Shown in pieces: positions 18,901 to 49,820 of a stretch of DNA of 64,000 nucleotides. The stretch comes from Hericium rajendrae. Taxonomy: Eukaryota > Basidiomycota > Agaricomycetes > Russulales > Hericiaceae. The notes beneath the pieces are model-generated. The model saw only the letters and a program-made list of their open reading frames with translations. It had not been told where the DNA came from and searched no databases. Position 1 is the stretch's first letter, and each line of letters begins with the position of its first letter. A program made the translations under genes and the position numbers. The stretch lies in contig CM065887.1 of NCBI GenBank assembly GCA_033439255.1, positions 2,046,001-2,110,000 of the forward strand. The letters run 5' to 3'.

Positions 18901-19850
18901 AGCCGTGGTTGCTACTGTAGTAGAATAGTTACTACTATAGCAGTACAAAAGGCATACTTTTAACCACTGTTATCAATTCTACTAGAAGTAATTACTACCA
19001 CTGCTAATACGGCTGTAGAATGGCTAGCTCTGCTTTGGTAGTAGTATTCACTAGCTCTGTCCCTCTACAAACTGTAGTATTTACTAGCACGGCTCGTTTA
19101 CTGGGCATTTTTTACTAGGCTCCAGTATTAGTATTTACTAGGCTGGCTGATTTCTTGACTGTAATTACTACAATTCCAGCTCCAGTAACATTAGTATTTA
19201 CTAGCGCGGCTTATTTACCGCTCGTCTAGTATTTACTAGTGCCACTTTGCTAACCATATTTACTAGTACTGATTTGCTAACCGTATTTACTAGTACCACT
19301 TGACTAACCGTACTTATTACTATACTTAGCTCCGGTGGCCCCACCCGTAGTATTTACTAGTGTGGCTTGTTTACTGGGCATTTTTTACTACTAGGCTCCA
19401 GTATTAGTATCTACTAAGCTAGCTCATTTCCTGACCATAATTACTACAATTCCGGCTCTAGTAACATTAGTATTTACTAGTGCGGCTTATTTATCACTCA
19501 TCTAGTATTTACTAGTACCGCTTTGCTAACCGTATTTACTAGTACCACTTGACTAACCGTACTTATTACTATAGCTCCAGTGGCCCCACCCATAGTATTT
19601 ACCAGCACGGCTCATTTACTAATCGTACTTACTAGTCGCGCTCTGGCTACAGTAACATTAGTACTTACTAGCGCACTTGTTCACTGCTCCCGTAGTATTT
19701 ACTAGTCCAGCTCATTTACTAATTGTACTTACTATGGCTCCGGTTGTAGCAGTATTAGTACTTATTAGCATGCTTGTATTAGTACAATTTACTAGTGCGG
19801 CTCGTTAACCGCTCTCGTAGTGTTTACTTAGTCCAATTCGTTGTGTTGCC
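18901..19850. repeat. Left terminal and subterminal repeats of the giant element
   Basis: The first 100 bp pair with 49725-49820 as inverted repeats. Beyond this come some twenty copies of GTAGTATTTACTAG-like motifs. They are partly arranged in tandem units of about 280 bp (units starting near 19073 and 19353, a third partial near 19590). The motif is a near-palindrome and is the expected layout for transposase-binding sites. Confidence 0.85.
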
Positions 19851-20296
19851 TCATACCAAATGTAATTGCTAAGTTACAATCCTGCTTGTATGTGACTTCG
19901 GATCTCTGTCGGGATCACACATAAGCATGATGTGTCAGCTTTCGCTAATACCGTTGCCAGAAGCAAAGTCTGCAAAGTAGTATCTACGAACTTGCGGATA
20001 CAAGTACGATGTCTTTGTCAATAAACAAAGACACACGCGCTTCGAATAACCTTAGCTCTTAATAGTAGGCACTGGAAATCAGCCATTATTATTACCATCA
20101 GAGTGATGTAACCTAAATGAAGAAGGTAGTGAAGTATAGAAGGTCACGAAATATAGTTAAACTCGAAAAGATAAACAAATGTTGCCTCCCGACGAGGATC
20201 TGGAGACACGATCAGTTGTAAGCGAGGACCTGATCACAGTACTGAAAGCTTCGCGCTGCAAATGTGCAAACAAACAACACAAAGTATGTCAACAAG
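19851..20296. other. Spacer, nothing recognised
   Basis: Between the left subterminal repeats and the stop codon of gene A. No supported gene; presumably holds the 3' end of the gene A transcript. Confidence 0.5.
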
Positions 20297-22132
20297 TTAG
20301 AAAATGTCATCACAATGCACAACAACGACGCACCATTTTGACGACCCCTCGACAGCATCCTCGTCGTCCTCCAAGCCATGCTTCAGAGTCCGGCTTGCTG
20401 CCCGCGCCAAGTTCTGGACCATCTGCTTGAGCACCCAGTCCACATCCTCGACCACGGATTCCCACTCATTCCTGTCCTTATCTGACGTTGCGATGTCGTT
20501 CCACCATGCCAGGCACACCAAAACAAGCTCTATCCCATTCCTACCTCCTTTCGCCCTCGCCAACCAAGTCTCGCCATCTGGCACTGCTCGACTAAGGGGC
20601 CATTCATCGCCCCTCCATTCAGGCTGCAAGTCTATCCACCAGTCACGCACACTGCTACCGAACTCAGCCGGCTTTCCAAGGTCGGGCGGCTTAGCAAAAC
20701 CACGCCCACGACCCTGCCATACCTTGATCTGAGATGGACGGCTCGTGGTTGACAGCACAAACCGTTTGCCCTAGTAGATTGGGTCAGTGTCGATCGGTGA
20801 TTAGGTACGTTTTCGCAGCTTACCTTTCCAACTGGGAAACCTAATGCCTTGTCAAATTCAGCCCAGGATCCCATCACACCTTGCCACGTCTCGGTTTCGC
20901 TACTAGCTTTCAAGGAGGCGTAGTCCTCCTGGAACCAGCTAAGCCATGCGGTGTCAATCTCCTTGTCGCCACCATCACTCTCTCTTATCTCGAAGTCTCC
21001 AGCTTCCGGGCCTGTGCTCGCCACTCGGCCGTCGCTCGCAGGGCTCTGTCCTTGTGGCTCGGGAGCCTTGGCTCCTATCGTGGCAGTTCCACCCTCCAAG
21101 TGCGATCCTTTTGCCAACGGGGTAGTAGTGTGTACAGCAGTAGACGTCGTAACTGCCATGGGAGTTTGGGGCATCGGGGGAGTCATTTGTTGGACAGTAT
21201 CTATGGTATGTTCCTTTAAAGTATTTGTCTCGCTCATGTTCATATCAGTAGCGACAAACAAAAACGCTGGTCCCGCATTGCCGTTGGGTTGCCCAGCGGC
21301 AGGGGGTGCACCCGAAGCAGTTTCTTGGGTAGGCCCGTCTGTCTGCGATGGAGTGCTACTAGGAGCTGGGGGCGTGGGACCACCGTTGCTCTGTACTGGG
21401 CCTATGTTTTTGGTAGGCAGAGTGATATGGGATGCAGTGGGAGCTAGAGTCGGGGCGGTAGCAGAGGTAGTCGCAGCAGCAGCAGCAGCAGCAGCAGAAG
21501 TAGCCGCAGTGGCAGCAGAGGTAGCCGCAGCGGCAGCAGAGGTAGCCGCAGTGGCAGTCATGGTGGCGCCGCTGGTCTGCATAGGCTCACCTGTGCCAGT
21601 CTCTCCGCCAATCGACTCATGCTGTGACGAAGCAGCGCTGGGCTTTGGATCAAGGCTGTCGCTGGTACTGGTGATGATGCCCGACGTCTGAGCACTGGAT
21701 GGGATAGAACGGTCATTAGCAAGGAATGTCCGTTTTTCAGATCATTTATTGCCCGTGCACTCACATTTCTTGTGTTTTCTTCAAGCGGGAAGACTCGCGC
21801 TCTGGTGGTTTGGATCCTTTCAGTACGCGTGGCTTCCGGTTCCTCTTCTTCTTCCCCTTGGCAAGTGCCTTCTCCTCTTCTGTGAATTCGGGCTTGTCAA
21901 GTCCGGCGACTGACAGCAGACATTGTATATTCGCAATGCGCTCCTCACGCTCCCTCAAGTAGAGCGTGTTCTCATCTTCCTCCTCCTCCTCCTCCTCCTT
22001 CTCGCTCTCCTCACCCTCTTCGCTATCTTTACCGTCGTCTTTGCTGCCATCCACGGTGGATTCTGCCTGCTCTTCCGTGCTTTTGTCGGCGGGGGCAGCA
22101 CTCAATGTATCTCTGCTCGTGGACGCCTCGGG

Positions 22133-22555
22133 TGTCACGGATCGCTCCATTTCTCTCCGCCTTCTTCTCTGCCATCAAGGCATCGCGTCGGTCATGTGCT
22201 CCAGCAGCCTTATCACATGTTCACTTCCTCACATGACCTGGGGCTATCCTTCACCCATGCCCTTGTTCCCCTTTGGGACATCCTATTGTTCTCCCTCCCA
22301 TTGTTCTCCTTTTGGCCACCATTGTTCTCACTCTATTGTTCGACCCGTTATGGTGTCCATTGTTCTTTTCCCATTGTCGTCCCAGTACTTATAGGCTCTC
22401 TGTCGCTTGCCTATTTCCCTAGATTGTCCATTTCGTCTGTACCGTACTGTACCTCCAATACAGGTCACTGCGCTGCTAGTCGCTCTCTGCTCTCTCGCTC
22501 TCATCACCACTGGTGACTTGGGTGGTTCTCTGCTGTCTACGACCGAGTCTTGACA
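22133..22555 (+). repeat. 5' LTR of gypsy element 2
   Basis: 423 bp, TG...CA ends. Confidence 0.95.
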
Positions 22556-23780
22556 CCTGGACAATCTCTCATACACCCGCCTCACCTCCCTACTATCGCC
22601 CATCATACCTCTCTTCTTTGAACCCTTCACCGCCGACATTTTCACCGTATCTCGACATCCATTCCATCAACCTCATCTCTCCTTCCCCATCGCCAACACC
22701 ATCGAGGGCAGTGCACTCATTCCTCTCCTCCGCTATTGTGCTGTGAAGCGTTGGGAAGCCGAAGGAGTTTGGTTTTGATTGAGATCGTGGAAACCACGCG
22801 CAGGTGCTATCTCCATTGCCTTATACGTTCGAATTCGAGTTGCTTTTGATGTCGACTTGCAAGAATTCACGTTTGGTGCCTCGGACATCACCTACCACTG
22901 TCGCCAACCCAACCGAGGATCCCCTGTGAGCATCCTGCCATCGACCTCGTTCCTCTTTTGCACACTAGGTTTCTTCACCCCAGAACCCTCGCCTGAGCCT
23001 GTGTGGGCCAGAGAACGTCTCGGCCACCAATTCCTCAGAACCTCGTACTCCACCACCTTGTACCCTCGTGCCCTTGGACGTCGTCCAGTTGCGGCAGACT
23101 TCCTGTAGGTTGTCACCATTGATTCCACCGACCCCCGCTTCCAGACCACTGCACCCTTCCCACTCGGAATCTTCGAGTCCCTTGGGGACTACCACGTTTA
23201 CACCCTTGCTGGCATCGCCCGGATCCACTTTTCTCACCAAGACCCTGCCACCCGCCAGTGGTACTTCGCTGAGTGCGAAGACTTCCCCTACCTCGAACTC
23301 GTTGACTTCGACGTTGCCAGAGAAGAACACCACTGCCTACACCCAGCCACTCCACCGCTCCCCACCGTTGCTCCTCCTAGTATCGACTCCCCTCCTGCAC
23401 GCACCGAACCCCTCTTTGTACCAACAGGTATCATCTTCAACGCCGTTACCAGGAAGTACTACGCATACCGTTCCAACTCTCGACGCCTAGTCGTTGGCTG
23501 GAGACCAAACCTAGTAGAAGGAAGAGATCAGTGGTTTTGGCAGGCCAGTAGCGTTTTCATCACTGAACCTGAACTCGCTCTCTCTCACCAAGTCCTAGAA
23601 GCCCGCAAGCAAGAGCGAGTTTCCCGGCTCGCAGTCCTCCGCTCACCACTACCCCCTCGCATCCCAACCCCGATACCAATCCCCTCACCCACTCCACCTG
23701 TTACCACTGTTACATCCACATCCACCGTCAACGTCAAACCGATCATTGCCCCAGCTCCCCCTGTTCAGCTGCCTGACGAC

Positions 23781-24770
23781 ATGTCCAACCCCGAGATCGG
23801 CATCAAACCTGCTCCCTTTGAGGGAGATCATTCCAAGTCCAAGGAGTTCCAGTTGCGTATTCGCTTATTCCTTCGCGCCAACTCTACCTGGTATAAAGAT
23901 GATACCGCCCAGATCTCCCTCTTCCTCGACCTCTGCCAGGGCCCTATTGCCGGCCAGTGGGCCACCCAGCGTGTCGAGGAGATCCTTGAGGATGACAATC
24001 TTGTGGCTGCAAACACATCTCCAGCCCATGTCCCTCGCTACGCCAACCTCGCTGCCCTTCGAACTCGCTTCAATTTGGACTTCTCCCCCCTTGACGACTC
24101 CAAGGACGCCTCCCATGCCATCCAGACCCTCCAGATGGGTACACGCCCAGTAGTCGACTACATCACCGAGTTCGAGTCCTTCGCTCCTCGCACTGGCTAC
24201 AACGATGTGGCCCTGATCGATTGGTTCCTGCATGGCCTCAACAGCACCTTGCGGGATGATTGCCAGTGCAGCTACCCCACGCCCACCACCCTGGATGAGT
24301 GGAAGGCGAGGGCCCATGACAGGAATGCTGCCTACCTCATGCGCACCCGGTTCCAGAGTCCCCACCCTACAACTGGGCGCACCCCGGTGAGCACTCGCTC
24401 GCCTCAGTCCACATCTACTGGCCGATCCCGCACAGTTGCTGCTACAGGTGCCCCACTGCCCAAACTCTCAGAGCCTGACCGTGAGCATCTCAGGTGTGAG
24501 GGTGGTTGCTTCTGCTGCCGCCAGAAGGGCCATGGCTTCCGCGACTGCCCCCTCAATACCGACTCCAACCCCCGTGCCCCAATCCCTCGTGTCCGAGCGC
24601 TAGAAACTGGCTCTGCCCCGGGAGTAGCTCCAGAAGATGCAGCCGCCACCCTCGCTGTCCCCACCATCAACAGGTCCATCGCCGACTTATCGTCGCAGTT
24701 GAAGGACTTGAGCAAGGAAGAGAGGGAAGAGGCAAAAGCTGCATTAAAGGATATGGTTGAGGGTTTTTAA
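23781..24770 (+). CDS. Gag of gypsy element 2 (fossil)
   Basis: 329 codons from MSNPEIGIKPAPFEGD. Retrotransposon gag domain (WYKDDTAQISLFLDLCQGPI, then the LNSTLRDDCQ region), then a CX2CX4HX4C zinc knuckle (CFCCRQKGHGFRDC). A further open stretch upstream (about 22779 onward) is preserved in both gypsy copies and may belong to gag. Confidence 0.9.
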   Translation: MSNPEIGIKPAPFEGDHSKSKEFQLRIRLFLRANSTWYKDDTAQISLFLDLCQGPIAGQWATQRVEEILEDDNLVAANTSPAHVPRYANLAALRTRFNLDFSPLDDSKDASHAIQTLQMGTRPVVDYITEFESFAPRTGYNDVALIDWFLHGLNSTLRDDCQCSYPTPTTLDEWKARAHDRNAAYLMRTRFQSPHPTTGRTPVSTRSPQSTSTGRSRTVAATGAPLPKLSEPDREHLRCEGGCFCCRQKGHGFRDCPLNTDSNPRAPIPRVRALETGSAPGVAPEDAAATLAVPTINRSIADLSSQLKDLSKEEREEAKAALKDMVEGF

Positions 24771-24793
24771 AGCGTCCCCTGGTCACGTCGTCT

Positions 24794-27700
24794 GTGGGTG
24801 GCAAGAAACATTTCTTTGATCCGTCGAATCGCTTCTCTGTACTATCCGACCCCTGTGAGCAATCGTATCCATTGACTTTGCACATGTCCGCTATCACGCC
24901 CAACCATCAGACACCGTCCATTACGCTCCAGGCCAAGATTATCACTACTCCGATCAAGAAACAAATCGACGCTGAGGCACTTCTCGATAGTGGTGCAGAA
25001 GGCATCATTATGCACCCCGAGTTTGCCAAGAAACACCAGTTCCCCCTCAAGAAACTCCCTAAACCCTTTCCCGTTCGCAATGTGGACAACTCCGAAAACA
25101 TCATGGGCTGGGTCCGCTATTCAGTCAACCAGAACATCCGCATTTATGCCAAGGACTCGACGTCCTTCTATGAGGAGACAGCTGAGTTCTATCTCGTTGA
25201 CATTGGTGACTACGACATTATCCTTGGGACCGATTGGTTACAGGAACACAACCCTGAAATTGATTGGGTCTCTCGTCGTGTGGACATGACTCGCTGCCCT
25301 CCCTCTTGCACTCTGAATAAACCCCCGGTCAAGAACCTGTCCACTCGCACTGAACGCCGCCACTCAGCCCCTCGTCCACCAGTCCTCAGCGCTGCTGCAG
25401 TACTGCTCCCCCCACCTTGCCCCCCTCCATTGCTCCCACTGCCCCCACCATTTGTCGCTGCTCCACTTCCCAAATACGTGATCCCCGCTCGCCGAGTCCA
25501 AGGTGTCCGCCTTCGCCGCATCCACCTGTCCAAAGTCCCTGCATGTCTATTCACCGAGGACGATGACCCCCGACCTAATGTCGATGATGACTGGGTTGAA
25601 GAGGGCCTTCGTCTAGCTGGTGTTCTCCCTGACTGGGACACACCACCCCCACCAGACGACGACCCTGACTATCAACACACCATCCGTATCTGTCGCTCTT
25701 TCACCAATGCTCAGAAACTGGCGGAGCGTGTGGCCACTCGTGTTGCAGAGAAGTCCTTTGCTGAGATGGTTCCCCCTCAGTATCAGGATTTCCAACCTGT
25801 CTTCGACGAGGAATCCTCCTATCGCCTCCCCGAACGTCGCCCTTGGGATCACGCCATTGACCTGAAAGATGGTTTTGAACCCCGTTCCTGCAAGGTCTAT
25901 CCCATGGCTCCTACCGAGCAGGAGGACCTCGATTCATTCCTTGATGACCAGGTCAAGAAAGGCTACATCCATCCTTCCAAATCCCCTATGGCGAGTCCCT
26001 TCTTCTTTATCAAGAAAAAAGATGGAAAACTACGCCCCGTCCAGGACTATCGCAACCTCAACAAAGGCACCATCAAGAATGAATATCCCCTGCCCCTCAT
26101 CTCTGAACTCGTTGACAAGCTCAAGGGTGCCAAAGTCTTCTCCAAGATGGACGTTCATTGGGGTTACAACAACGTTCGCATCAAGGAGGGCGACAAATGG
26201 AAAGCCGCCTTCAAAACCAACCGTGGTCTCTTTGAACCCCTGGTGATGTTTTTTGGTCTTACCAACTCCCCTGCCACGTTCCAAGGAATGATGAATGAAC
26301 TTTTCAAGGATCTCATCGATACGGGCAAAGTCGTCATCTACATGGACGATATCCTCATTTTCACCGAAACCCTCGAAGAACATCGCGACCTTGTGCGCAA
26401 GGTCCTCCAACGCCTCCAGGACAATGACCTCTTCCTCAAACCAGAGAAGTGCTCGTTCGAGCAGCCCTCAGTTGAGTTCCTCGGTCTCATCATCTCCCAT
26501 AACACGCTCGCCATGGACCCCGTCAAGGTTGCAGGCATTGCTGAATGGCCTGCCCCTCGTAACGTCAAGGACATCCAGTCCTTTGTTGGCTTTGGCAACT
26601 TCTATCGACGCTTTATCCAGGACTTCTCCAAAGTCGCTCGTCCCATGTTTGACCTTACCAAGAAAGACCATCCTTGGGCCTGGTCTGCTGAATGTCAACA
26701 TGCCTTTGAGGCCCTTAAAGCTGCGTTCACCTCGTCCCCAGTCCTTATCATGCCTGACCCGTCCAAACCCTACCTGGTTGAGGTCGATGCCTCAGACTAT
26801 GCTACAGGAGGTATCCTATCCCAGTGCGGGGAGGACGAGCAATGGCACCCTGTTGCTTACATCTCCAAGGCCTTCACTGCCCCTGAACGCAACTACGACA
26901 TCTATGACAAGGAACTCCTGGCCATCATCCGTGCCCTCGAAGCCTGGCGCCACTACCTGGAAGGTTCTCCCCATACTGTGGAGATCTGGACCGACCATAA
27001 GAACCTGGAATACTTCAAGTCTGCCCAAAAGCTGAGTCGTCGTCAAGCTCGCTGGGCTCTCTTCCTCACTTGTTTCGACTTCACCCTGATCCACAAACCC
27101 GGTATTCATCACCGGCCAGATGCCATGTCGAGACGACCTGACCATAGAGAGGGGGTGGACGACGACAACTCTGATCATGTCCTCCTCGACCCCAAGTACT
27201 TCCAGATCCGTGCTACATGTCCAGCTGCTGTCAAGTCCATTGGCAATGCTGATCTTCGCCAACGCATTCGCAATGCCAAGACCAAGGACATTGAGGTTGT
27301 TCAAGCCCTTGATGTGATCCTGAACAATGGTCCTCGCTCCCTCGTCAAGAACCTCCAAGAATGGAACTACGAGGATGGCCTCATCCTCTTTCGTGGCAAA
27401 GTCTACATCCCTGCTGACAAGGACCTTCATCGGGACATCGTCAAGCTGCATCATGACACCCCCATGGCTGGTCACCCAGGACGCTACAAGACCTATGAGC
27501 TCCTCAGTCGCAACTACTGGTGGCCCGGTATGTCTGTCTTCGTTCGTGATTATGTTGATGGCTGTGCTACCTGCCAGGCCACCAAGGTTCAAAATCACCG
27601 CCCTCATGTTGAAACAATTCCCAATGCCATCCCTACCCGTCCCTTCCAAGACATTACCTCGGACTTCATTGTCAAACTCCCAGAATGCCAAGGCTATGAC

Positions 27701-28900
27701 TCCATCAATGTGGTCGTTGACCATTTTACAAAGCACGTCTCCTTCACTCCTTGTAAAGAGACCATTACCAGTGATGGCACAGTCGACATCCTTTTTGACA
27801 GGATTTATCGGAACTACGGCCTCTGGGAACGCCTCATCTCTGATCATGGCCCACAGTATGCAGGCAAAGTCATGCGTGGTGTCTTTGACAAACTTGGTAT
27901 CAAGTCCTCCCTCAGCACCGCCTATCATCCACAGACCGATGGCGAGTCAGAACGTGTCAATCAAGAACTCGAGCAGTTCCTTTGTACCTTCTGCAACTAC
28001 CATCAGGATGATTGGGTCCAATGGCTCCCTTATGCTGAGTTCTTGCACAACCACCGTATCCACAGCGCCACTAACCGAGCTCCATTTGAAATGCTCCTCG
28101 GCTATATTCCCACTGCCATCCCCACTGTCAACCCCACATCGTCTACACCCACCGTCGAGGATCGTTTCTGTCACCTCGAACAACTTCGCACTGAGGTCCA
28201 GGCCAGCCTTCAAACAGCTGCTGATCTCATGAAGCGCAACAACCAGGACCATATGCATGACACCATCCACTTCCAGGTTGGTGACAAGGTCTGGCTCGAT
28301 GGCAAGAACATCAAAACCATGCGACCCAAAGCTAAGCTTGCTGATCGACGCCTGGGACCTTTTGAAATCACTGACGTCCTGGGCCCCGTCTCTTATCGAC
28401 TGAAGCTACCGCCCACCTGGCGTATCCACCCGGTGTTCCACACGTCCCTGTTGTCCCCTTACAAGGAAACTGATGCTCATGGTCCCAACTTCCCTGCACC
28501 ACCACCTGACCTTGTGGAGGGCGAGGAAGAGTACGAAGTTGAGTCTGTCCTCGATGCTCGTCTCACCCGGAACAAACGCAGCATTGAATATCTCGTCAAA
28601 TGGGCAGGCTACCCTGATTCAGAAAATCAGTGGCTTTCACGTACCTCCCTTTCCAATGCCCATGGTGCAATCACCGACTTCTACACCCGCCATCCGCATG
28701 CACTCAAGGCTCCCAATCTTCGTGGACTCATCTACCTCGACCCCGTCCATGCTCATCACGCACTCCAGGCAAAAGTGCGTCTTAGAGAGGGGGTGATGTC
28801 ACAGATCGCTCCATTTCTCTCCGCCTTCTTCTCTGCCATCAAGGCATCGCGTCGGTCATGTGCTCCAGCAGCCCCATCACATGTTCACTTCCTCACATGA
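24794..28900 (+). CDS. Pol of gypsy element 2: protease, RT, RNase H, integrase, chromodomain (fossil)
   Basis: 1,368 codons. Order: aspartic protease with DSG near residue 65; reverse transcriptase with YMDD near residue 516; RNase H near residue 660; integrase zinc finger and DDE core; and a C-terminal chromodomain (VESVLDARL...EYLVKWAGY) just before the 3' LTR. That domain order defines a Ty3/gypsy chromovirus. Frames on the opposite strand up to 370 codons are shadows. Confidence 0.95.
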   Translation: MGGKKHFFDPSNRFSVLSDPCEQSYPLTLHMSAITPNHQTPSITLQAKIITTPIKKQIDAEALLDSGAEGIIMHPEFAKKHQFPLKKLPKPFPVRNVDNSENIMGWVRYSVNQNIRIYAKDSTSFYEETAEFYLVDIGDYDIILGTDWLQEHNPEIDWVSRRVDMTRCPPSCTLNKPPVKNLSTRTERRHSAPRPPVLSAAAVLLPPPCPPPLLPLPPPFVAAPLPKYVIPARRVQGVRLRRIHLSKVPACLFTEDDDPRPNVDDDWVEEGLRLAGVLPDWDTPPPPDDDPDYQHTIRICRSFTNAQKLAERVATRVAEKSFAEMVPPQYQDFQPVFDEESSYRLPERRPWDHAIDLKDGFEPRSCKVYPMAPTEQEDLDSFLDDQVKKGYIHPSKSPMASPFFFIKKKDGKLRPVQDYRNLNKGTIKNEYPLPLISELVDKLKGAKVFSKMDVHWGYNNVRIKEGDKWKAAFKTNRGLFEPLVMFFGLTNSPATFQGMMNELFKDLIDTGKVVIYMDDILIFTETLEEHRDLVRKVLQRLQDNDLFLKPEKCSFEQPSVEFLGLIISHNTLAMDPVKVAGIAEWPAPRNVKDIQSFVGFGNFYRRFIQDFSKVARPMFDLTKKDHPWAWSAECQHAFEALKAAFTSSPVLIMPDPSKPYLVEVDASDYATGGILSQCGEDEQWHPVAYISKAFTAPERNYDIYDKELLAIIRALEAWRHYLEGSPHTVEIWTDHKNLEYFKSAQKLSRRQARWALFLTCFDFTLIHKPGIHHRPDAMSRRPDHREGVDDDNSDHVLLDPKYFQIRATCPAAVKSIGNADLRQRIRNAKTKDIEVVQALDVILNNGPRSLVKNLQEWNYEDGLILFRGKVYIPADKDLHRDIVKLHHDTPMAGHPGRYKTYELLSRNYWWPGMSVFVRDYVDGCATCQATKVQNHRPHVETIPNAIPTRPFQDITSDFIVKLPECQGYDSINVVVDHFTKHVSFTPCKETITSDGTVDILFDRIYRNYGLWERLISDHGPQYAGKVMRGVFDKLGIKSSLSTAYHPQTDGESERVNQELEQFLCTFCNYHQDDWVQWLPYAEFLHNHRIHSATNRAPFEMLLGYIPTAIPTVNPTSSTPTVEDRFCHLEQLRTEVQASLQTAADLMKRNNQDHMHDTIHFQVGDKVWLDGKNIKTMRPKAKLADRRLGPFEITDVLGPVSYRLKLPPTWRIHPVFHTSLLSPYKETDAHGPNFPAPPPDLVEGEEEYEVESVLDARLTRNKRSIEYLVKWAGYPDSENQWLSRTSLSNAHGAITDFYTRHPHALKAPNLRGLIYLDPVHAHHALQAKVRLREGVMSQIAPFLSAFFSAIKASRRSCAPAAPSHVHFLT

Positions 28901-29219
28901 CCTGGGGCTATCCTTCACCCATGCCCTTGTTCCCCTTTGGGACATCCTATTGTTCTCCCTCCCATTGTTCTCCTTTTGGCCACCATTGTTCTCACTCTAT
29001 TGTTCGACCCGTTATGGTGTCCATTGTTCTTTTCCCATTGTCGTCCCAGTACTTATAGGCTCCCTGTCGCTCGCCTATTTCCCTAGATTGTCCATTTCGT
29101 CTGTACCGTACTGTACCTCCAATACAGGTTACTGCACTGCTAGTCGCTCTCTGCTCTCTCGCTCTCATCACCGCTGGTGACTTGGGTGGTTCTCTGCTGT
29201 CTACGACCAAGTCTTGACA
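28797..29219 (+). repeat. 3' LTR of gypsy element 2
   Basis: 423 bp, overlapped by the 3' end of the pol frame (pol stop at 28900). Confidence 0.95.
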
Positions 29220-29284
29220 TCGGGCAAGCTTGCTGCGCAAGAGGAGCGGCAATAGGAGTCGCCTGTTGAGTGATGGTGGCACTA

Positions 29285-29432
29285 CTGTACTATTACGGTT
29301 GTAGGCTCATCGATTTTGGGTGTGACCAGATTTTTAAATCCGAAAATTCTGAAAGAATATTCTGAGCACATAAAAAATAGGCTCACAGGTCCTTGTGACC
29401 TGTGACCTGAGCCTACGACCGTAATAGTACAG
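29285..29432. mobile_element. 148-bp MITE with TA flanks in gene A
   Basis: Inverted termini CTGTACTATTACGGTTGTAG and the complement at the right end, with TA at 29283-29284 and 29433-29434. Tc1/mariner-type. An inner hairpin around CACAGGTC/GACCTGTG lies near its right end. Confidence 0.85.
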
Positions 29433-30542
29433 TAATTGTGTCCAGAAGAGCTCGCTCCTGGCACATCTTAGGTGCTGATAGCATAGTGAGTTACGCCGTT
29501 GATTCATACGATCAACTACTCACGAAATACCATGTTCAAATCTTTTCGAAAGGCCACCTCAACAATTTGCTCATAGTTTTCACAAGTGTGGTGGAAAGCG
29601 CGTCCGTTCTCAAGTGAGGTATTGAAACTGGATTATGGAGTAAGCTCCGATTTAATAGATGGTTTGACCTACTCACCTGTAAGGCTTGATCAGGCCTCCA
29701 GCAGCCAGCTCTGGGCCTCCTACGAGCATGAAGACCTCCCATCCCGTTGCTTCCTTGATTTCTTGTATGAGCTTTGTCAACGTCTTGGGTAGCAAGTCGA
29801 TCGCGCTGGAATAGTACGGTAAGTTACGATAATCTTCAGCGTAGTTGAAGATGCTCACTTTTGATATTTGTGTGCCCTTGCTTGGCGCGCGAGTTCTTCG
29901 CGTGCTACACCCCCCTCTGCAGCGTCCTCTTCAAAGTCGTCGTCGTCATCCTGGCCTTGCCAGACTTTCTCAACACGAGCCTTCACGTCGTCGGGCTCAG
30001 TTTCGAAAATCTTCCCGCATCTCTCATTCCGCCAAACAACCGCCTTCTTCTGGAGCTCCGGCGGCATCATCTTCACGTACTCCGCCCACTCAGCTTCAAC
30101 TGGGGCCTTCAGCCTTTCCCAATACAGACTCTGGAAGATCTGTGCTCAGCTTGGCTTACAAGTCTTTCCAAACTTCAAGACAGAAGGCTTCTTGGGTGCG
30201 GGCGTATTTCCTTTCGCCTTCGCGGCCTTCTTGTGTGTGCCCTTTGATCCCCCTTCACTGAGGCGGCCGTGGTTCTGGAACCACTGCATAAGTTGCTACG
30301 TGCACGCGAAGATAAGTTTTTCTAAGTCGTAGATTCAAAAAACCAACAGCACTCACAGTTCAAATAGGCGGCTGTCCGAACACCTTTTCGGCAGGCTCAG
30401 GGACATCCGTCTCAGGAAACCGAGTGAACCATTTGCTGTAGAGCACTGGCCACCAGTCCGCCGTTGCCTTCTGTGCCTTCTTCTCCTTGTATGTGGGGAG
30501 TTGCTCGCAGAGGAAGGCGTGCTGTTCTGACGTCGCCCACAT

Positions 30543-30835
30543 TTTCGAGACGACAGTGGTACGTGGCTAACGTGCTGCCATCCAATAGGGTGTCGTATTA
30601 ACCATGCCATTCCAACAGAGTTGGCCACTGCTCATTCCGCCAAATGGGGCAGCTCGCCAACACTTGAGATGTCTCGATTGGCGAGGCCCTCATCGCCAGT
30701 CTCTCACGATGCCAGCACCTTCTGACACACTTCGTTTCGGTGCCCGAAATCGTGCAATCTGACATCCAACTCAAAGGATAAAGTTCATTCTGCATTGTAT
30801 CTCAACCCCCCCCCCTTTCTCAATTGACCACGAAC
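30543..30835. promoter_or_regulatory. Divergent promoter between gene A and the viroplasmin-like gene
   Basis: 293 bp separate the start of gene A (minus, 30542) from the start of the double-viroplasmin gene (plus, 30836). A poly-C/CT run at about 30807-30821 lies just upstream of the plus-strand start. The head-to-head layout suggests shared control; inferred from position only. Confidence 0.5.
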
Positions 30836-35692: not shown

Positions 35693-35754
35693 CTATGCCC
35701 ATTAGGCAGTTGGCTTATATAATCACATATCTTCAATCTAATGAGTTTGCAGGT

Positions 35755-39122: not shown

Positions 39123-39410
39123 ATATACTTAAAGTGATGTTTGCACAATTGATGCTCTCAGGCATTTGTATAAGTTTTTTGTTACTCTAAACCTTCATGC
39201 TAATCGACAGGCAATTTTACCAGAAAGTAGTTGCCATATTTGGTCACTAATTTCTGCCAGTATACAAAATATGGTTTGAAGGTAAGAATTCAATTTTTAT
39301 AGTATTTTATGCATGTAAAATAGAAAAATACTGACTAGATTATACATTGAAGAGATATAAGCTCTATTAAAAAAAAAAACTGGTATGATTTATGTTATTT
39401 TTTGTAAAAC
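39123..39410. other. AT-rich spacer, nothing recognised
   Basis: Between elements W and V. No gene or clear repeat. Confidence 0.5.
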
Positions 39411-39988
39411 ATCAGGAAGGTTGACAACTTTCTGATTGACCTGACAATTTCTAACCCTACTGATAGCTCCTGATTGACCTGATCTACCTGAAAGCAATCT
39501 TAACAGGCAAATATCTGATCAAACTTTTACATTTAAGTAAAGACATTCATTGTCAGATATATAAGTTTGTAATCTCTAACTAATAGATATAACAAAATCT
39601 CTGATATCTGAAATTTTCTAAATCTGAGAGTGTCTGATCTGAGATTTTTTTTCAAATCTGGAGGTCAAATATCTGAAAATTATCTGCAACTGTCTGAGAG
39701 CATCTGATGGTATCTGACACTGTCTGATCCATCTGACTGATATTTGACCTCCAGATTTGAAATCAGACACTCTCAGATTTTCAAAAATTTCAGATATCAA
39801 AGATTTTGATATATCTATTAGTTAGAGATTAAAAACTTATATATCTGACAATAAATGTCTTTTCTTGAATGTAAAAGTCTGATCAGATATTTGCTTCTCA
39901 AGAACTTTCAGGTGGATCAGGTCAATCAGAAGCTGTCAGTAGGGTTAGAAATTGTCAGGTCAATCAGAAAGTTGTCAACCTTCCTGAT
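39411..39988. mobile_element. Foldback element V, 578 bp
   Basis: Almost entirely an inverted repeat. The left arm from ATCAGGAAGGTTGACAACTT pairs with the right arm ending AAGTTGTCAACCTTCCTGAT, each arm about 280 bp and meeting in a short TCTGA-rich centre near 39700. No target duplication that I could settle. Confidence 0.8.
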
Positions 39989-40222
39989 GAAGTCAGAAAA
40001 AAATTCAAATATAGAAATTAAATTCTGTCTTTGGTGCTAGCAGCAATGTATACAAATCAATAGAAGGTGCACAGGCTAACAGAAAATGTATGAGGTAGTA
40101 GAAGCATACATAAGTTTGTTGTGATGCTCATAGGTTGATACATGTGTAAGCTAATCAACAAAAGTATGCATAAGTCAAAAAATGTGAGCCAAGAGTGCAT
40201 ATATGAGTTGGTGTAGTGTGTA

Positions 40223-41385
40223 TCATCTGAAAAATTGAAATTTCATATAGCCCAGTATTGATTTATATGTTTTATCATAGCACTATAAGGTCTATCACTA
40301 TTTATGCCACCACAGTTCTCAACTATGTAAGACTATGAGGCCTATCATAGCTATCATAACAGTAGTTGGACACTATATAGTGCTACATGTTTCTGAAAGA
40401 TAGCTGTAGTTGTTGTACAAATCATATAAATTCAAAGGCTTGCTCTGATCTATATGATCCCTACTATGATCCTTGCTATTAGTACTATCTCAGATCAATC
40501 AGATACAAGAGATATAAAGCCAAAATCAATTATATTTCATACAGCTACTAGTACAATCAAGTATATTACAAGTTCAAACAGTGCACACATGCACAATGGT
40601 ACACATCATGTACAGGTAGAGCTATGTGCAGGCATGTGTGCACTGGTAAGGCACAACAAAAGTACATATGTGCATAAGGCACTAGGTTCATGCACAAGGC
40701 ATGATAAGTGTTATAGCTGTGCAGGAGGTCCAGTGGCCATGCTCACCAATGTTAAACTGTAGTGGGCCTATATATAAGATGCAATGCGCAGTGAGGATGT
40801 GTGAGATATTGAGAGCCATGCATGAGGCATAGAGGGTGAGCATAAGGCATACAGGCCCATATGTAAGGCTGCTACTAGCTTGTACAGGAGATCAACAGGG
40901 TGTGGTGGCCATGCACAGGGTGCTGCAAGCATGTGCAGAGTGTCAAGATGCTGTGGGCCTGTACATGAAGTACAGTAAGCATCTATAGGATGGTGGCTTG
41001 TATGCAAGATGTAGTGTAGCATAATAAGCATGCATAAGGCACTAAGCCTATGCATGGCTTGGTATGTCTGTGTATGAGGCATGAGGCACAAGATACAGGC
41101 AGGTGACACACCTGCACATAGCAACACACAATGCATGTATATAGTTGTGCTGGCTGACATGCTCACATTCAGCTGTAGTCATCTCTAAGCTGTCACTGGC
41201 CCATCCACAAGGTACATCGAGATGTGGTAGACCAGCATAGGGTGTGACCAGTGAACATGAGGCATAGTGAGCTGGCATGAGGTGTAGCAGGCATGCATGA
41301 GGCACTGGCCCCAGCACAATGCTACATGCCAAGTATAAGACATGAGGTACAGGCCTGCATGTAAGATGTCAGTATACCTGTACAT
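40223..41385 (+). mobile_element. Element X, copy 3, partial
   Basis: The end TCATCTGAAAAAT at 40223, the following TATAGCCCAG...CTATCATAGC repeat, the ATTACAAGTTCAAACAGTGCA junction and the TGCA/CATGC-rich tract match copy 1 at 53084-54289 in inverse orientation. The promoter-like half of X is absent, so it is truncated near 41385. Confidence 0.65.
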
Positions 41386-41447
41386 GACCATACATGACGG
41401 TAATTTATATACCTTCATTGATGATAAAAAAAAGGAATCGTTTTGCC

Positions 41448-41883: not shown

Positions 41884-44685
41884 CTTGCACATGGCATTCA
41901 AAAGAGAGGACATATTATTTTTGAATGCTATACTATACATCTGTATTATCGAGAACGTGCAGTGGGATTTCTTGTGTGATGAACTTGACTTGGCAAAATT
42001 ATATTATACTGCAGAATGGTCATATGATCTGAGCAAAGCCGCGACTTCAGTACTCCGTGCTTAGCGCTTAGCACTAGCTCCCGACACTTGCTCTGCACGA
42101 TGGGAAGAAAACGCAAGCGGCAAGCCATTCAAGTGAGGACCATTGGTGGTAGTTCTACTACCCCGACACCCCCCCCAGCTGCTTCAGTCTTCCAAGTCAA
42201 CATTGGTGTTCGTCAATGCGGCCAAGGAAAATCAAGCCTGACAATGGCCCCAATTCAAGCTATGCCTGTTCTACAAGATGAAGGCGATATACAAACACCC
42301 GCGGCGGACTCTGATACCCATGGGTTCTCGGACCATGAAGTCCCCAGCACAGAGATGATGCCGGAGTCTGAGACTATCATTTGCCCACCACCTCCGAAAC
42401 GGAGGCGAAGGCGACGCCGGAAGGTAAGCATAATCTCCATGCACACCTCCTATAACATGTTTAACAAGCTCTTTCGAACTCGTAGCGCCAACCTCTTGTT
42501 AGCTGGCTACCGTTCCGCAATACGTTTCTTGACGAAATGCTCCGCCACAAGGGCCTCAAATCTGAGGAGGCCGACCGTCCGTGTACGTGTGGCCTTGGAG
42601 AAGTTGCGAGATACCGGTGCGCTCAGTGTCTGGAGAGTCACTTGTTATGCAAGAAATGCTGCGTCGCTCGGCATGCATCACTTCCACTCCACCGCATACA
42701 GGTAAGGATTCGAGCTATCTCTTCTCATATACTTCATCTCATATGCAGCAGCAATGGAACGGTCGGTTCTTCAAGCCAGCATCTCAAAAATGTGAAATCT
42801 ACATAGCTACCAGCCAACGCTATGCTTGCTTTTATAGTGCTATGGCTGCTATGTAGTTGGGCCACACAGCTATACAGGACTATGGTAGCTATGGTAGCTA
42901 CCATAGTCATGAGTGATGGGTATATAGCATTACATAGTAATAGGATACCACTATGTCTGCTATGTAACTTATGTATTTGTAGTGTCCCTCTATGTATGCT
43001 ATAGATACTATGTTCAATATAGAGCCTCATAAGGTTGCTATGGACTTTCAGGCTGCTATAATATTTGTAGTTGCTATAGAGTCTATAAATTCCAGCATTT
43101 TAATATATTACAACAATAATATTATTACATGAGATTGAACTACTACAATATATTACATGAAAAGTGGCCCATGTGCAAGGCACATGGCCATACATGAGAT
43201 GGTGGTGAAGCCACGCACGATGCGTTCGGGCAATAAACAGGATGTGCGGTTTGTGCGCCACACGCGCAGACCGTGCGCAGAGCTTGGGGACTGGGTACGA
43301 AGCTTGCGAGTCGTACGCATGCGCACGGGCCATGTTCTTGACACCTGAGCCACGGACAACGCATGGGAGGGTGTGCGCAGAGGGCTGGGGCCATCGAGGT
43401 GACGAGAGGGCGGCGCCGTGCGCGAGAGGGCGGCGACGTGCGCGAGCGGGCGGCGAGATGCATGAGTGGGCAGCGAGACGCGCGGCGAGACGCACGAGAT
43501 GGGCGCGAGGGGTGAGGCAGGCGGCGACGTGCCGAGGGGCGGCTTTGTGCCGAGGGGGTGGCTTCGTGCGCGAGGGAGCGGCGAGACGCGCGAGACGGGC
43601 GCGAGGGGGCGGTGACGTGCGCGAGGGGTGCGATGGGTGAGCGAGGGGTGCGATGGGTGAGCGAGGGGTGCGATGGGTGAGCGAGGGGTGCGAGGGATGC
43701 GAGACGGGCGCGAGACGTGCGCGAGGGGAGCAGGTCGGCAGGCTGCTTGGCTCGTGCACGAGCTGCGACCGTGCATGGTCCATTGGGTGCGTGCAGGGCA
43801 GGGTGGACTCTGCGCAACGTGCGCGTCGTGTCCGCGCGCTGACACTGCCATGCGAGGATGCATGTGGGGAGCTTGGACGGTGTTGACGGGGCCCGTGCAC
43901 ACGGGTTCGTGCGCTGGCGCAGGCGTGCGTGGCCGTGTGCTGGCACAGACATGCGCGGCCGTATGCTGGCGCTGTCGTGCGGACCGTGTTCGCGGGCAGG
44001 CGGAGGCAGGTGGAGCCATGCGCGGGCGTGCGTTCGTGCGTGCGCTGGCCCAGCCGTGACGACTGTGCGCACTGGCACGGGCAGACGAGGGCGTCGGAGG
44101 CGGTGGTCGGCATGCGAATGAATGCGGGGAAGTGGGCGCGGACAGTGCGCGGGAGAAGGGCGGCGGAGTGATGGAGGGATGGGATGTGGGGCGGGGTCGA
44201 GAACAAACGGAAAAAGCAAGAGTACCACTCGTCGAGGAGTGGTACTCTCGAGATTAGTACTTTACACGCGAAATAGAGATTTTTTTTTTACTTACCTCGT
44301 GTCCCTGAATCCCCACAAGACATCCGCATCCTTCAAGTTGACGGGAGAAGACGAAACGCGAAGATGGGGGGAAGAGATCGTAACGGGACGGAGTAGCTAG
44401 GGTGAGTGAGCTAGAGTCGACAACGCGACTTCGATGCTTCAGCCACCGAACGAGCGAAGCAGCGTTCCTCGAACCACTACAAATCAAGAAAAATCATATA
44501 AATTTAGAGAAAAAGAATAGTACTATAAATTGTAAATACAATTCGAACGAATGAGCACAGTAAGTATCTACTACATACGAAGCTCACAGCGAGCCAAGGC
44601 CATTTACTAAAGTCTGGCCCCAGTCTCTGATGCGATGCTCGGCAAGCGCCCGGCAGCCACGAATCCCGGCTTCGCCCGGGATTCG

Positions 44686-44693
44686 TATATAAG
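44686..44693 (+). promoter_or_regulatory. TATA box in element X copy 2
   Basis: TATATAAG directly after a hairpin (GAATCCCGG...CCGGGATTC, 44661-44685). The equivalent TATATAAG is conserved in copy 1 on the other strand (14343-14350), which supports a real promoter. Confidence 0.55.
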
Positions 44694-44762
44694 ACTCGCG
44701 CGATGCACATTGCTTCTTGCTCTTAACCTCCACTCTCTCCTGCCACATCGACATCTTCGTCA

Positions 44763-44935
44763 TTGTCTTTTCCTCGCTTGTCGTCGTCATTTCCTCGCTC
44801 GTCGTCATCATTTCCTCGCTCATCGTCGTCATCATTTCCTCGCTCGTCGTCATCATTTCCTCGCTCGTTGTCATTATCTGCTCGCTCGTCGTTGTTTTAT
44901 ACTTGCTCATCATTGTTTCTTGTTCGTTGTTGTTG
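44763..44935. repeat. 21-bp minisatellite downstream of the TATA box
   Basis: About eight copies of TTTCCTCGCTCGTCGTCATCA with small variation. Confidence 0.85.
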
Positions 44936-47900
44936 TCTTCTAAGGTAATCTTCAACTGTTAGTCTCTTATTGCTCATATTAATACTAATGTCTTTCGAGC
45001 TAGTTTTTTAAATTTCGCTTTTTGTTACTTTGGTAAGTTTTCATGTGTTATCTTTATCTTTTAAGACTAATGTTTTCTTATCTTTTACTACTTATCTTAT
45101 ACTTATCTTATCATTCACTGCTTATCTTATCTTATACTTATCTAATATTATCTTATCTTATCATTATTTTTACTTATATTTTTACTTTTTAGTTAGTAGT
45201 AGTGTATATGATATTAATATAATTTTGATGCTTTGAAATGGTTTATACTTGTGTGATCATATGTTACTAATTCTGATATGGCTGTAGAGATTTATAGTTT
45301 CAATAGATTTTATTGCTTTAATATATATATTAGGTCTACATATAAAATATAAAATATATGAGACACATATTGAACATAGAATATGTAAGAGACATATTGA
45401 ATATAGAATATGTAAGACATATAAGCCTTATAGCTTCAATAGACACTTATAGCTTTCATAGCTAGTTTGACTATCATATCTACATAGTTAGCTACCATAG
45501 CTATCATAGCACTCCATAGCATTACTCTCTAGCTCCATAGCACTATATAGCATTTCCCTTTAGCTATGCTGGCTATAGAGAAAAGGGCAGTGCTATGGAA
45601 CTATGAAATCTATATAGACTTTATAGAGCTATGTATCATTTACACATTTTTCTGATGAGAAACTCTCAGCAACTTAGGTCTGCATATTCAGCTAGGTCAC
45701 GACGGTGCTGCGTGCCCTCATCCTTTTTCCCATGTCAACCACATTGTTGTCATCAACGTCACCGGCATCCACACAGTGACCATCAAGTATTGTGGTTGCG
45801 GCATCTCCAGATCTTCGCGTCCTATTGTGCAGCTTCTCCGCGCGGCTTGGTGGCCAGTCACCGTCGATCGTCCGCAAACGGTCGTAACCTTTGATGCCCT
45901 CAAGGCATTCCATGCGCTGACTTTGCAAAGCAAAGTCAATGCATATGATTTTTACTCTTCTCTAGTAAAATTGACCGATAACACTGGTACGCGCTCTACA
46001 CCGGTGAGTCTCCCCCGTTAACCCTTCAATAAATGCATGTACTAATATCATGGATTGCCAGTATCGCTACAAGGAATTTCTTTGGGCGGCCCGTGAGTTT
46101 TGGCATCTCTGCACAGCCAAATGAAGTGCTCGGGAGCATGATCCGAAAGGGATTGAGGCCACCAAGCAAGGGGAGCTCGTCATTTTGTGCCCGCTGTGTC
46201 CTTTTCCTGGGCGAAATCTTCCTGCTGATTGGCACCTGACCCTGCCAGATAAAAGGTAACATCTTATGTCTTATTAGATTGTCATTCGCATATTTACCTG
46301 GTTGAAGATGGCGTTATGCCCTATTTCTAGCCATGGATGCCAATTTCAAGCTCAAGCGCAAGAATCGAGATGTCACAGATGTTGAGCTCGGCCCAGGTTG
46401 GGGATATTTTGTCAATGAAGCTGAATATCAGGCGCATATGGCGGATTACATTGATGAACCTGAGGTACGTTAGCTCATTGACCGTGACTCCAATTTCATT
46501 ACTCAATTCCAGCCATACATCAGCAAAAGCACTGCAATTCCAATCACTCGGCGATTGATCAAGCAAATACCCCCGCCCAGCGTCGCTTTGTTGTCAACGG
46601 TGTTGGCGCCGTGATATGTGCCCATCATTGCTTCTACCGCACCAATGCGATCTGCGACTTGCACCGGGGCGAGAAGTATGTTCTCTTTCGGTCTTGACTA
46701 TATCCACTGTTTAAATCTATCCGTTTGTTTTAGGTATGCAAGCATGGATTTCATCTTGCTGTCAACTCTCTACTGTTCTATCCTCCTGATCACTCTACTC
46801 TACATATCGTACGACATTGCCTGCTCATTTTTGGTCAACTTCTTCCACCGTATGCCGAAACAGCCGGATATATTACAAATAGAAGAAGGCACTGTCGACA
46901 TCAAATGGGTCGTACCCAAATTTCATCTCCTAGCTCACGGAGCATCTTGTCAATCTTCTTTCTCTCTGAACTACACTTACGGCGCAGGCAGGACTCACGG
47001 TGAAGGTATAGAGACAGGATGGGCAGATACCAACCACGCTGCACTGAGCACTCGTGAAATGGGTCCGGGCTCGAGGCATGAAACCCTCAATGACGTATTC
47101 GGGGCCATCAATTGGTGTAAGCTGATCAATATCGATAAGTAATCATATGCTTCAGACGGTCATGGACTAATAGTAAGACAAAATCGTGGTCTGCTTAGGT
47201 CCAGCCCTTGCAAAGGACCTCGACAAGGCGATTGCGGCGCGTGAGAAGCAGCGCTGTATCATCGCAGAAATGACCTCCACCCTCCCTAGTGCCATCACGA
47301 CTGAGTGGAGGCAGATGATGGATGCCTACAACAATGACAAGAGTCAGTCCAATCCATATGAGGAGCCTGTTGCTTGTAAGCTCCGTTTATCGATTCGTCT
47401 TAGCTATATCTCATCGAGTGATTAGCGACGACCCTTAACGATGTCAAGCAAGAAATCCAGCTTGAGGAGGCAGAGGAGATCGCTCGTGGGACCCTTTCAC
47501 CCCACGAGACAACCGCCAGCATTTTTCTCGCCATGGGCATGGAGTTAGAAGAGCAGCAGTATGTTCTCACTCAGATGTCATAGGGCTCGGGGGCTAACAT
47601 CTTGCTGCAGGCATGTCCTAATTCAGAAAGTCGGCCGTGGCAAGATGGCGGATGGCATCCAGGAAAAGCGCAATGTGCTTTGTCATCGCATCGAGACCTG
47701 GTGCAAGATACAATTGATCTATATGCCGGGTGTCACCCGGCTTCTATCACCACCCTCAGACGGCAGCGAAATGGGCAAAAATGCAGCCGAGGATGGCCCC
47801 CAGGTCAAGCCTGAGCATGTGCCTCTTTATCTACCATCACATCTCGCTCCGGACGTGCGCGCATCAATCTGCGGGAACGACCTTATCCTGAAGGAGACGA

Positions 47901-48715
47901 GGCTACGACGCGGTCAAATCGACGATGCCCTTCATCAAGTGCAATGCTCCCTCCGGATACAGCTAGGCATCCGCCACTATCGCCATATACACGTCAATGG
48001 CTCCGGCCAGAAGATCAATACTAGGGCTCAGACTCTCGCCCTACGGCTTAAGGACAAGCTGCTTCGGCACATCAAGCGATACTGCATGGCATACAAGGCC
48101 CTTCAGCAACTTGACAAGGACAGAGAATGGTCACAGACCTTCAAGAAGCTGGCAGAGGAAGATGTGCGCCCTCCTCGTAAGGACGATGGCATACTTGGCG
48201 AGGGTCAGTTCGAGCTAAGCTGGATCTGGCGTACCCTCCAGCCGGATTCGCGAGATATCCCTCAAGGTGATGATTCAACAACGCAAGAGGAAGTACATGC
48301 TGGTAAGCACTGCTTTAAGTGGTAATGGTAAACATTTGATCTTGTTTCTTAGGTGTCCGCATTGACTGGGTAACAACGAGAGCTCGTGCCGACCGCTGGG
48401 AGGAGGAGACTGGCCATCTGCAGGAGGAGATGCCACGTTGTGTTCGGAATTTCGAATGGCGAGCTGATGCGTGGTTGGTGCGCATCAGCCGCAGAGCAGA
48501 TGCACCTGCAGACCTACAGTCTGGTCTCGATGCATACTGCCATCGGCAGGCAGCAATGTACCACGCTCTTGCTCTGTGCTTCGTCAACTTGTGGCGGCCG
48601 GTTTTAATGTGGCATGAGCTGGATATTCCTTCTTCCTTCGACACATATCCTGTCCTGCCAGCAAAAGCCTCGTGCGCGAAGGCCCGCCGTGATTCCTCAA
48701 GCTTGGATGAAAGCA

Positions 48716-48754
48716 GCTCGAGCTCGAGCTCGAGTTCGAGTTCGAGTTCGAGAT
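48716..48754. repeat. GAGCTC/GAGTTC hexamer run coding poly-Ser
   Basis: Runs of AGCTCG and AGTTCG encode the serine stretch at the end of the KDZ transposase. Confidence 0.85.
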
Positions 48755-48954
48755 GTCCGAGCGACGAAGACAGCGAAGGCAGTGACAGGGAGCAATACGA
48801 ACTTTCAGACTTTGAGGAGACGTAGTTATAGCATATCCACACATCAAAGAGTCGTCAGGTAGTCTTTTTTGTCTGAACAATGTAGTAGCTTGTGCAGACT
48901 CTATGGGAGAACCACCTAAGTGTCGACTTAAGACGAAATACTATGGCCTACCGG

Positions 48955-49820
48955 CACTTTCCGTGTAAGTCGGACATGGTGTCCTTCAAATATACAGTGC
49001 TAGTAAATACTATGTAGACAATTTTCGTCTAAGTCAACACTTCTTGCAAGAGTGGTAAATACTTGAGGCAGTTATCCAGAGGACCACTGTAAATACAAAA
49101 GCTGTTCGAGTACTAATAGTAAATACTACGCTTACCAGGTACAACTGCCATAGTAAAAACGTCGGTAGCAGATCAGCAATCCATCCTTACAAATAATGGC
49201 CCTGGTACATGGCCCTGGTAAATACTATGCTTACTAAGTACAACCGCCATAGTAAAAACGTCGGTACTAGTAGGTATTGGTCCATTGGCTACCGATGCCT
49301 AGTAAATACTGCGCTTAATAAGTACAGCCATTGCTAGTAAAAATGTCGTAGTAGATCGGTATCCGGCAGCCACCTAACAAATAACGGGCCTAGTAAGTGG
49401 CCCTGGTAAATACTATGCTTACTAAGTACAACCGCCATAGAAAAAATGTCGGTACTAGTAGGTATTGGTCCATTGGCTACCGATCCCTACAATAGCAAGC
49501 CTAGTAAACACGCCTAGTAAATACTATGCTTACTACTAGTACAGCCATCACTAGTAAAAACATCGTAGTAGAGCAGTAACTATCAGCCACCCATTCCTAC
49601 TATAGCAGGCCTAGTAAATGTGCCTAGTAGTAAATACTTTTTCACCCAGTATAGCAGACCTAGTAAAAATGATGTTAAGTCGGAGCTACATTACTAGCCA
49701 TCTCTCCTTACAATAGCCAGCCTAGTAATTACTTTCAGTAGAATTGATAGCAGTGGTTAAAAGTATCATTTTAGTACTGATATAGTAGTATCAGTAACTA
49801 CATCAGTGCTCACCACAGTT
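48955..49820. repeat. Right terminal and subterminal repeats of the giant element
   Basis: A dozen or more TAGTAAATACTA-like motifs, partly in tandem units of about 210 bp that share CTTACTAAGTACAACCGCCA. The units differ from those on the left, but the core motif is the same in inverted orientation. The terminal 100 bp pair with the left end. Confidence 0.85.

Follow-up and report, generated by a model that had tools for sequence, protein, structure and literature searches.

A very large insert with a KDZ transposase gene in a split gypsy retrotransposon of the fungus Hericium rajendrae

The split retrotransposon

The DNA analysed here, referred to as the window, is a 64,000-nucleotide stretch of the genome of the basidiomycete Hericium rajendrae (GenBank assembly GCA_033439255.1, contig CM065887.1, positions 2,046,001 to 2,110,000 of the forward strand). 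A gypsy retrotransposon (gy1) lies in it in two pieces, and the DNA between the pieces carries a transposase gene of the Kyakuja-Dileera-Zisupton (KDZ) superfamily, and several nested insertions, among them an intact second gypsy copy (gy2) oriented opposite to gy1 (Table 1). The two gypsy copies belong to one family by DNA identity, and the insert is very probably a KDZ transposon that entered gy1.

Table 1. Features of the split gypsy element and of the DNA inserted in it (window positions; LTR, long terminal repeat; ORF, open reading frame; RT, reverse transcriptase; MITE, miniature inverted-repeat transposable element)
Feature	Positions	Strand	Evidence or remarks
gy1 left target duplication CGGTG	15063..15067	.	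Sequence comparison
gy1 left piece: 3' LTR and pol (RT, RNase H, integrase)	15068..18900	-	Pfam RVT_1 2e-36, rve 2.1e-8
Left 9-bp target duplication of the KDZ insertion, GCAGCGCTG	18892..18900	.	
Inserted KDZ-type DNA transposon including nested insertions, 30,920 bp	18901..49820	+	
Left terminus AGCCGTGGT	18901..18909	+	
Subterminal inverted block, left copy	18930..18997	+	88% to 49723-49790, E 1.5e-17
Left subterminal array, 13 copies of TTTACTAG	19080..19795	+	All copies on +
Coding fragments left of gy2, up to 369 aa	20300..22132	-	No Pfam match worth believing
Nested intact gypsy element gy2, chromodomain type	22133..29219	+	ORFs of 553 and 1,379 aa; TCGGG/TCGGG
Coding fragments right of gy2	29220..30700	-	No credible Pfam match
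Accessory gene, RNase H1 N-terminal half-domains	30828..31741	+	Cauli_VI, PF01693; on separate frames
Nested 3,081-bp LTR element	31983..35063	+	Identical LTRs of 172 bp; TCGG/TCGG; long EG-rich ORF
Foldback or MITE-like palindrome, 580 bp	39410..39989	.	
Repeat remnant	40223..40663	-	74% to 53844-54289, which lies outside the transposon, directly outside gy1, in opposite orientation
KDZ transposase gene, spliced	42100..48825	+	Frames and splice sites as read; 2.9-kb insertion; in-frame stop 46122-46124
Nested insertion of ~2.9 kb in the transposase gene	42786..45651	.	Imperfect inverted termini (AAAAATGTG...)
CxC2 cysteine-cluster exon of the transposase	45659..46018	+	PF18803, E 2e-40
KDZ catalytic-domain exons 46306-46470, 46488-46694, 46615-47139	46306..47139	+	PF18758, E 2.2e-8, 1.6e-9, 4e-34
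Right subterminal array, 8 copies of TTTACTAG	49000..49667	-	All copies on -
Subterminal inverted block, right copy	49723..49790	-	
Right terminus ACCACAGTT	49812..49820	-	
Right 9-bp target duplication of the KDZ insertion, GCAGTGCTG	49821..49829	.	
gy1 right piece: 5' LTR, gag, protease region	49821..53083	-	Retrotrans_gag 8.3e-8; protease read from the gy2 match
gy1 right target duplication CAGTG	53084..53088	.	

The left piece of gy1 (3,833 bp) covers positions 1-3833 of gy2 and the right piece (3,263 bp) positions 3825-7087, both in ungapped alignments with 31/3,833 and 105/3,263 differences respectively. The pieces overlap by exactly 9 nt, and 3,833+3,263-9 gives 7,087 bp, the length of intact gy2. 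A preliminary description of the window, made from the sequence alone, had proposed that a gypsy element is split around the insert and that the piece lengths less 9 equal the uninterrupted copy at 22133-29219; both statements hold to the base, with gap-free tiling on gy2. In the 9-nt overlap the left piece has GCAGCGCTG and the right piece GCAGTGCTG, with a single mismatch between them; intact gy2 reads GCAGCGCTG. In 200,000 pairs of window positions drawn at random, 8 or 9 matches in 9 arose in a fraction of 0.00016. The 9-bp duplication proposed for the inner junctions is confirmed. So is the identification of the outer flanks CGGTG/CAGTG as the target duplication of gy1 itself, with 4/5 bases alike. 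When the 60-base flanks are rejoined and one duplication is removed, 114/120 positions agree with intact gy2. The insertion separates the protease domain of the gypsy pol from its reverse-transcriptase domain, at about residue 209 of the 1,379 of gy2 (RVP_2 67-178, RVT_1 417-578).

The gypsy copies differ at 136/7,096 positions, the 9-nt duplication being counted twice. Transitions account for 130 of these differences and 81 of the transitions are in CpG, the commonest class of difference, although just 18% of the C and G bases of intact gy2 lie in CpG. The bias suggests decay of methylated CpG, with repeats being methylated and deaminating in this host. The 9-bp duplication has a CG to TG mismatch and the outer one a CG to CA mismatch; because both belong to this commonest class, they do not weaken the duplications. 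The element opens with the same two bases that come next in the gypsy sequence, so that a duplication of 11 bp could also be drawn; it was rejected because the two termini would then become unequal. The 931-aa frame of the left gy1 piece matches reverse transcriptase, RNase H and integrase, but not the chromodomain, and stops earlier than that of gy2.

One part of the comparison stands apart. Between the left piece of gy1 and gy2 (15068-18900 against 25387-29219) there are 0 differences over gypsy positions 1220-3802, a length of 2,583 bp. Outside it, 29/1,219 positions differ on one side and 105/3,263 in the right piece, with two more differences at 3803 and 3805; at the rate of about 3% of these outer stretches, 77 differences would be expected in the 2,583 bp. 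The natural reading is gene conversion between the inverted copies, which would have followed the arrival of gy2.

Ends of the insert

Inverted repeats at the start and end of the insert, as the preliminary description had them, were found. The left terminus AGCCGTGGT and the reversed right end AACTGTGGT are alike at 7/9 bases, and about 30 bp inward follows a 68-nt inverted block, in which 18930-18997 pairs with 49723-49790 at 88% identity. Further inward are arrays of the motif TTTACTAG. The two ends hold 21 of its 22 sites in the window, in mirrored orientation, and the remaining site is at 45962; 0.97 sites are expected per whole window and 22 were reached in 0/100 shuffles. The 1-kb ends share 138 8-mers in inverted and 34 in direct orientation. 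Inverted sharing among 2,282 other tile pairs had a maximum of 95 and a mean of 18, the control tiles excluding the gypsy copies, the 3.1-kb LTR element, the repeat at 54.4-58.4 kb and the element's own ends. The inverted 8-mer sharing, the mirrored arrays and the inverted block therefore show that the ends belong together independently of the argument from the gypsy copies. In viral contigs the 14-base array motif had one match in each of the stretches listed (80 of at least 120), which is chance level, and these matches were not used.

The transposase gene

The transposase gene begins at about 42100 and ends at about 48825, roughly 1 kb short of the right terminus, if the putative exon boundaries are correct. 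Its CxC2 match spans the whole profile (1-107 of 107), and the three KDZ fragments, in the order of Table 1, cover profile positions 1-45, 47-100 and 92-217 of 217. These matches come from a Pfam scan (E<=0.01) of 149 of the 180 stop-free frames of at least 55 aa, in which one frame was kept and 31 were left out within the nested 3.1-kb LTR element; a second scan (E<=0.1) covered 90 short frames of 36-54 aa in 20100-22132, 29220-31982 and 35064-42786. The only transposase or recombinase families found in the first were KDZ and its cysteine clusters, and nothing credible was found in the second. Neither a tyrosine recombinase (DUF3435) nor a MULE (Mutator-like element) transposase domain was among the matches of the two scans; there was likewise no Tet_JBP match in either, although a divergent TET/JBP protein of the PE type may escape Pfam. 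Weak matches to NPHP3_hel and Proton_antipo_N, among the short frames, and to Tad3, DUF5626, DNA_pol_phi, DUF6764, Mfa1, SR-25 and DUF5775 are not believed. A search of PDB sequences with the KDZ exon gave a single hit, a weak one to a Mediator subunit (E 0.0037), and a single-sequence AlphaFold model of the exon had a mean pLDDT of 45.1, too low for a fold search.

In the gene model the ~2.9-kb insertion sits in what reads as a transposase exon, where splicing around the insertion is possible, and the in-frame stop at 46122-46124 separates two stretches of one transposase frame. This copy of the transposase thus looks broken on its reading frames, and for that reason the element is probably mobile only in trans, if at all.

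Nested insertions and size

gy2 and the 3.1-kb LTR element each have their own target duplication and therefore entered the KDZ element as separate insertions. gy2 has the features of a Ty3/gypsy chromovirus: gag, protease, reverse transcriptase, RNase H and integrase with a chromodomain (RVT_1 3.9e-36, rve 3.5e-8, Chromo 7.5e-11, RVP_2 9.1e-7, gag 8.8e-8), LTRs of 423 bp and a 5-bp duplication. The 3.1-kb element is young, since its LTRs are identical at 172/172 positions. Its 875-aa frame of EG-rich repeats gave no reverse transcriptase match in Pfam, and a Yae1_N match on it, although above the cut-off, is probably driven by the repeats and is not believed. An LTR-like lone copy of this element is present at 1409-1594 on the other strand (93%). 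The ~2.9-kb insertion has a GC-rich core with tandem repeats, and no clear target duplication was found for it. The 580-bp foldback and the repeat at 40223-40663 are probably further insertions into the KDZ element.

Without gy2, the 3.1-kb element, the foldback and the 2.9-kb insertion, the KDZ element measures about 17-18 kb; the core of about 14 kb given in the preliminary description was not reproduced. From the nesting, gy1 would have come first, followed by the KDZ element into gy1 and gy2 into the KDZ element, with gy2 possibly in the KDZ element before gy1 was reached. The LTR divergences (gy1 11/423, gy2 9/423) do not decide when gy2 entered relative to the KDZ jump.

A 7-kb stretch at 35064-42100 has a CpG observed/expected ratio of 0.35 (the nine others measured: 0.68-1.0), and its scanned frames matched no gene family in Pfam. 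It is either very old, heavily methylated sequence or made up of further decayed insertions.

Class of the element and rival explanations

Because the transposase gene carries CxC2 and KDZ domains, the insert is assigned to the KDZ DNA transposons, a class that the preliminary description had not named; a KDZ domain, the associated cysteine cluster and inverted ends flanking the transposase gene are all present. That a large DNA transposon had inserted into a gypsy copy was proposed at the outset and is confirmed. The reading preferred here, with a probability of roughly 0.9, is a KDZ-superfamily cut-and-paste transposon of about 17-18 kb without its recognisable nested insertions, which entered the gypsy pol with a 9-bp duplication. 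In such a transposon the transposase, with its CxC2 zinc cluster and KDZ catalytic domain, would bind the subterminal TTTACTAG arrays and bring both ends together, then cut at the ARCYGTGGT termini and insert with a 9-bp stagger. Two LTR elements, the 2.9-kb inverted-repeat element and probably the foldback would have inserted and swollen the KDZ element to 30.9 kb, possibly being aboard at the jump and possibly coming later.

Several points weigh against this reading. A single copy of the element was examined, and its terminal repeat as such is short and matches imperfectly (7/9). The duplication is 9 bp, compared with 7-8 bp reported for Kyakuja, Zisupton and Dileera and 4-8 bp for the KDZ elements of Cryptococcus, although these are ranges reported for other families and not a strict definition of the superfamily. 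The 2,583 bp without differences could alternatively be an assembly consensus error at that place. The KDZ exon found no relative in viral or prokaryote contigs, where one would not expect an element of fungi; the pattern matches, 1 and 12 respectively, were not confirmed.

It is very unlikely that another enzyme, for example that of a MULE, moved the insert with the KDZ gene as a passenger. Target duplications of 9 bp are typical of MULEs, and 9 bp is outside the values met with for KDZ, but no MULE, hAT or other transposase domain was found in the scan of the longer frames and the KDZ gene adjoins the right-end array; a second set of KDZ ends inside the insert was not noticed, no search having been aimed at such ends. 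A misjoin of gypsy copies around unrelated DNA by the assembler is highly improbable, in spite of two near-identical copies, one of them split, within 38 kb and of the suspicious stretch of zero difference. A 9-bp duplication, termini that match and subterminal arrays that mirror each other would not arise from a repeat misjoin, and misassembly is rejected because it cannot yield these together; gy1, gy2 and the 3.1-kb element also each retain their own flanking duplications. An inversion arising from recombination of the oppositely oriented gypsy copies was rejected because each copy retains its own flanking duplication. A Starship-like giant element with a tyrosine-recombinase captain can hardly be entertained. 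The size and cargo-like appearance would suit it, and Starships have been called in the basidiomycete Tremella fuciformis (PMC13066641), but it is contradicted by the gene content, with no DUF3435 among the Pfam matches and a KDZ gene present, and by a 9-bp duplication with inverted subterminal arrays.

A different question is whether the whole 30.9 kb jumped in one piece, with the nested LTR elements carried within the KDZ element from its donor site. The preliminary description had everything between 18901 and 49820 moving together; this was not shown, as gy2 (TCGGG) and the 3.1-kb element (TCGG) are insertions of their own. Joint movement is conceivable, though doubtful. PMC12477816 describes giant families of Ectocarpus, KDZ included, that mostly carry nested insertions generally fixed among copies, and the LTR divergences of gy2 and gy1 are similar. 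On the other side stand the youth of the 3.1-kb element and the long open gag and pol frames kept by gy2, and nothing in the window requires a joint move.

Comparison with known elements

Before 2025 only Zisupton was well characterised for its ends and duplications (PMC12730594). The duplication is 8 bp for Zisupton and for a Dileera element, and Kojima (2025) found two Kyakuja families of Laccaria to have 7-bp duplications and CA..TG termini with no inverted repeats (PMC12730594). These families, Kyakuja-1_LB and Kyakuja-2_LB, are like the Hericium element in their KDZ transposase, fungal setting and genes beside the transposase, but they have a TET/JBP gene, whereas the Hericium element has 9 bp, ARCYGTGGT, a subterminal inverted block and no TET/JBP match (PMC12730594). 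KDZ1-3 of Cryptococcus (9.2-11 kb, inverted repeats of 139-241 bp, duplications of 4-8 bp) share with it the KDZ domain with a cysteine cluster, inverted ends and cut-and-paste insertion with duplications; their cluster is CxC1, whereas that of the Hericium element is CxC2, and the latter is larger and has 9 bp (PMC12810828). The 9-bp duplication is thus unusual in being outside the published KDZ values met with, and it rests on one copy.

The preliminary description was right that the element is large, but in calling it far larger than ordinary elements it overstated the case, as KDZ giants of 30-32 kb are published in algae: KDZ elements of up to 30.3 kb in Ectocarpus and a moving 31.7-kb element of Chlamydomonas, as cited in the same source (PMC12477816). 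The giant families of Ectocarpus frequently have broken transposases and also carry extra genes (PMC12477816). The size class, the nested insertions and the broken transposase are therefore already known for KDZ. The algal giants share superfamily, size class and nested insertions with the Hericium element, but belong to brown and green algae and not to a fungus (PMC12477816). No fungal KDZ element of such size was met in the open-licence literature, although this is a weak negative given the parts of it that were available; a transposable element library of Marasmius oreades includes elements up to ~42 kb, with no class stated in the portion available (PMC9674265). Starships are likewise large multi-gene mobile elements of fungi, but have a tyrosine-recombinase captain, and none was found in the insert.

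At this locus a cut retrotransposon with an uncut copy beside it shows where a very large KDZ element starts and stops and which bases it duplicated, points that are otherwise hard to establish where copies are few. The element supplies end sequences that can be tested and a putative transposase-binding array for the KDZ superfamily. A broader proposal is rather unlikely: a fungal KDZ lineage with a 9-bp stagger and long mirrored arrays of an octamer bound by the transposase, in which fixed accessory genes (the RNase-H1-N-terminal protein and the large minus-strand protein) would aid movement, and which would approach the scale of small Starships and haul other transposons.

Accessory genes

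The RNase H1 N-terminal half-domains have E values of 6.8e-5 and 8.5e-4, with a third stretch at 0.057, and their position on separate frames is consistent with a spliced gene, as far as the frames can tell. According to PMC4289320, a Helitron of Pleurotus captured a gene with this domain. The term cargo-carrying in the preliminary description was an overstatement, as no host cargo gene was recognisable in the Pfam scans of the frames of the insert; what it holds is the transposase, the gene with the RNase H1 N-terminal domain and unassigned coding fragments. The minus-strand fragments on either side of gy2 may be one accessory gene split by gy2. They may resemble proteins common in Agaricomycete genomes, and such resemblances, together with the CxC2-KDZ combination, would point to a basidiomycete host. 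For a minus-strand fragment, a PDB sequence search gave no match and a single-sequence AlphaFold model reached a mean pLDDT of 49.7, too low for a fold search.

Surroundings

No Rfam family matched in the window at gathering scores, and the 6 scanned of the 14 flanking ORFs of at least 170 aa gave no Pfam match at E<=0.001. At about 54352-58410 (outer limits approximate, and no clear duplication found) there is, just outside the split gypsy, an AT-rich element of ~4 kb whose inverted repeats, composed of internal tandem repeats, are very long (738 nt at 96% and more).

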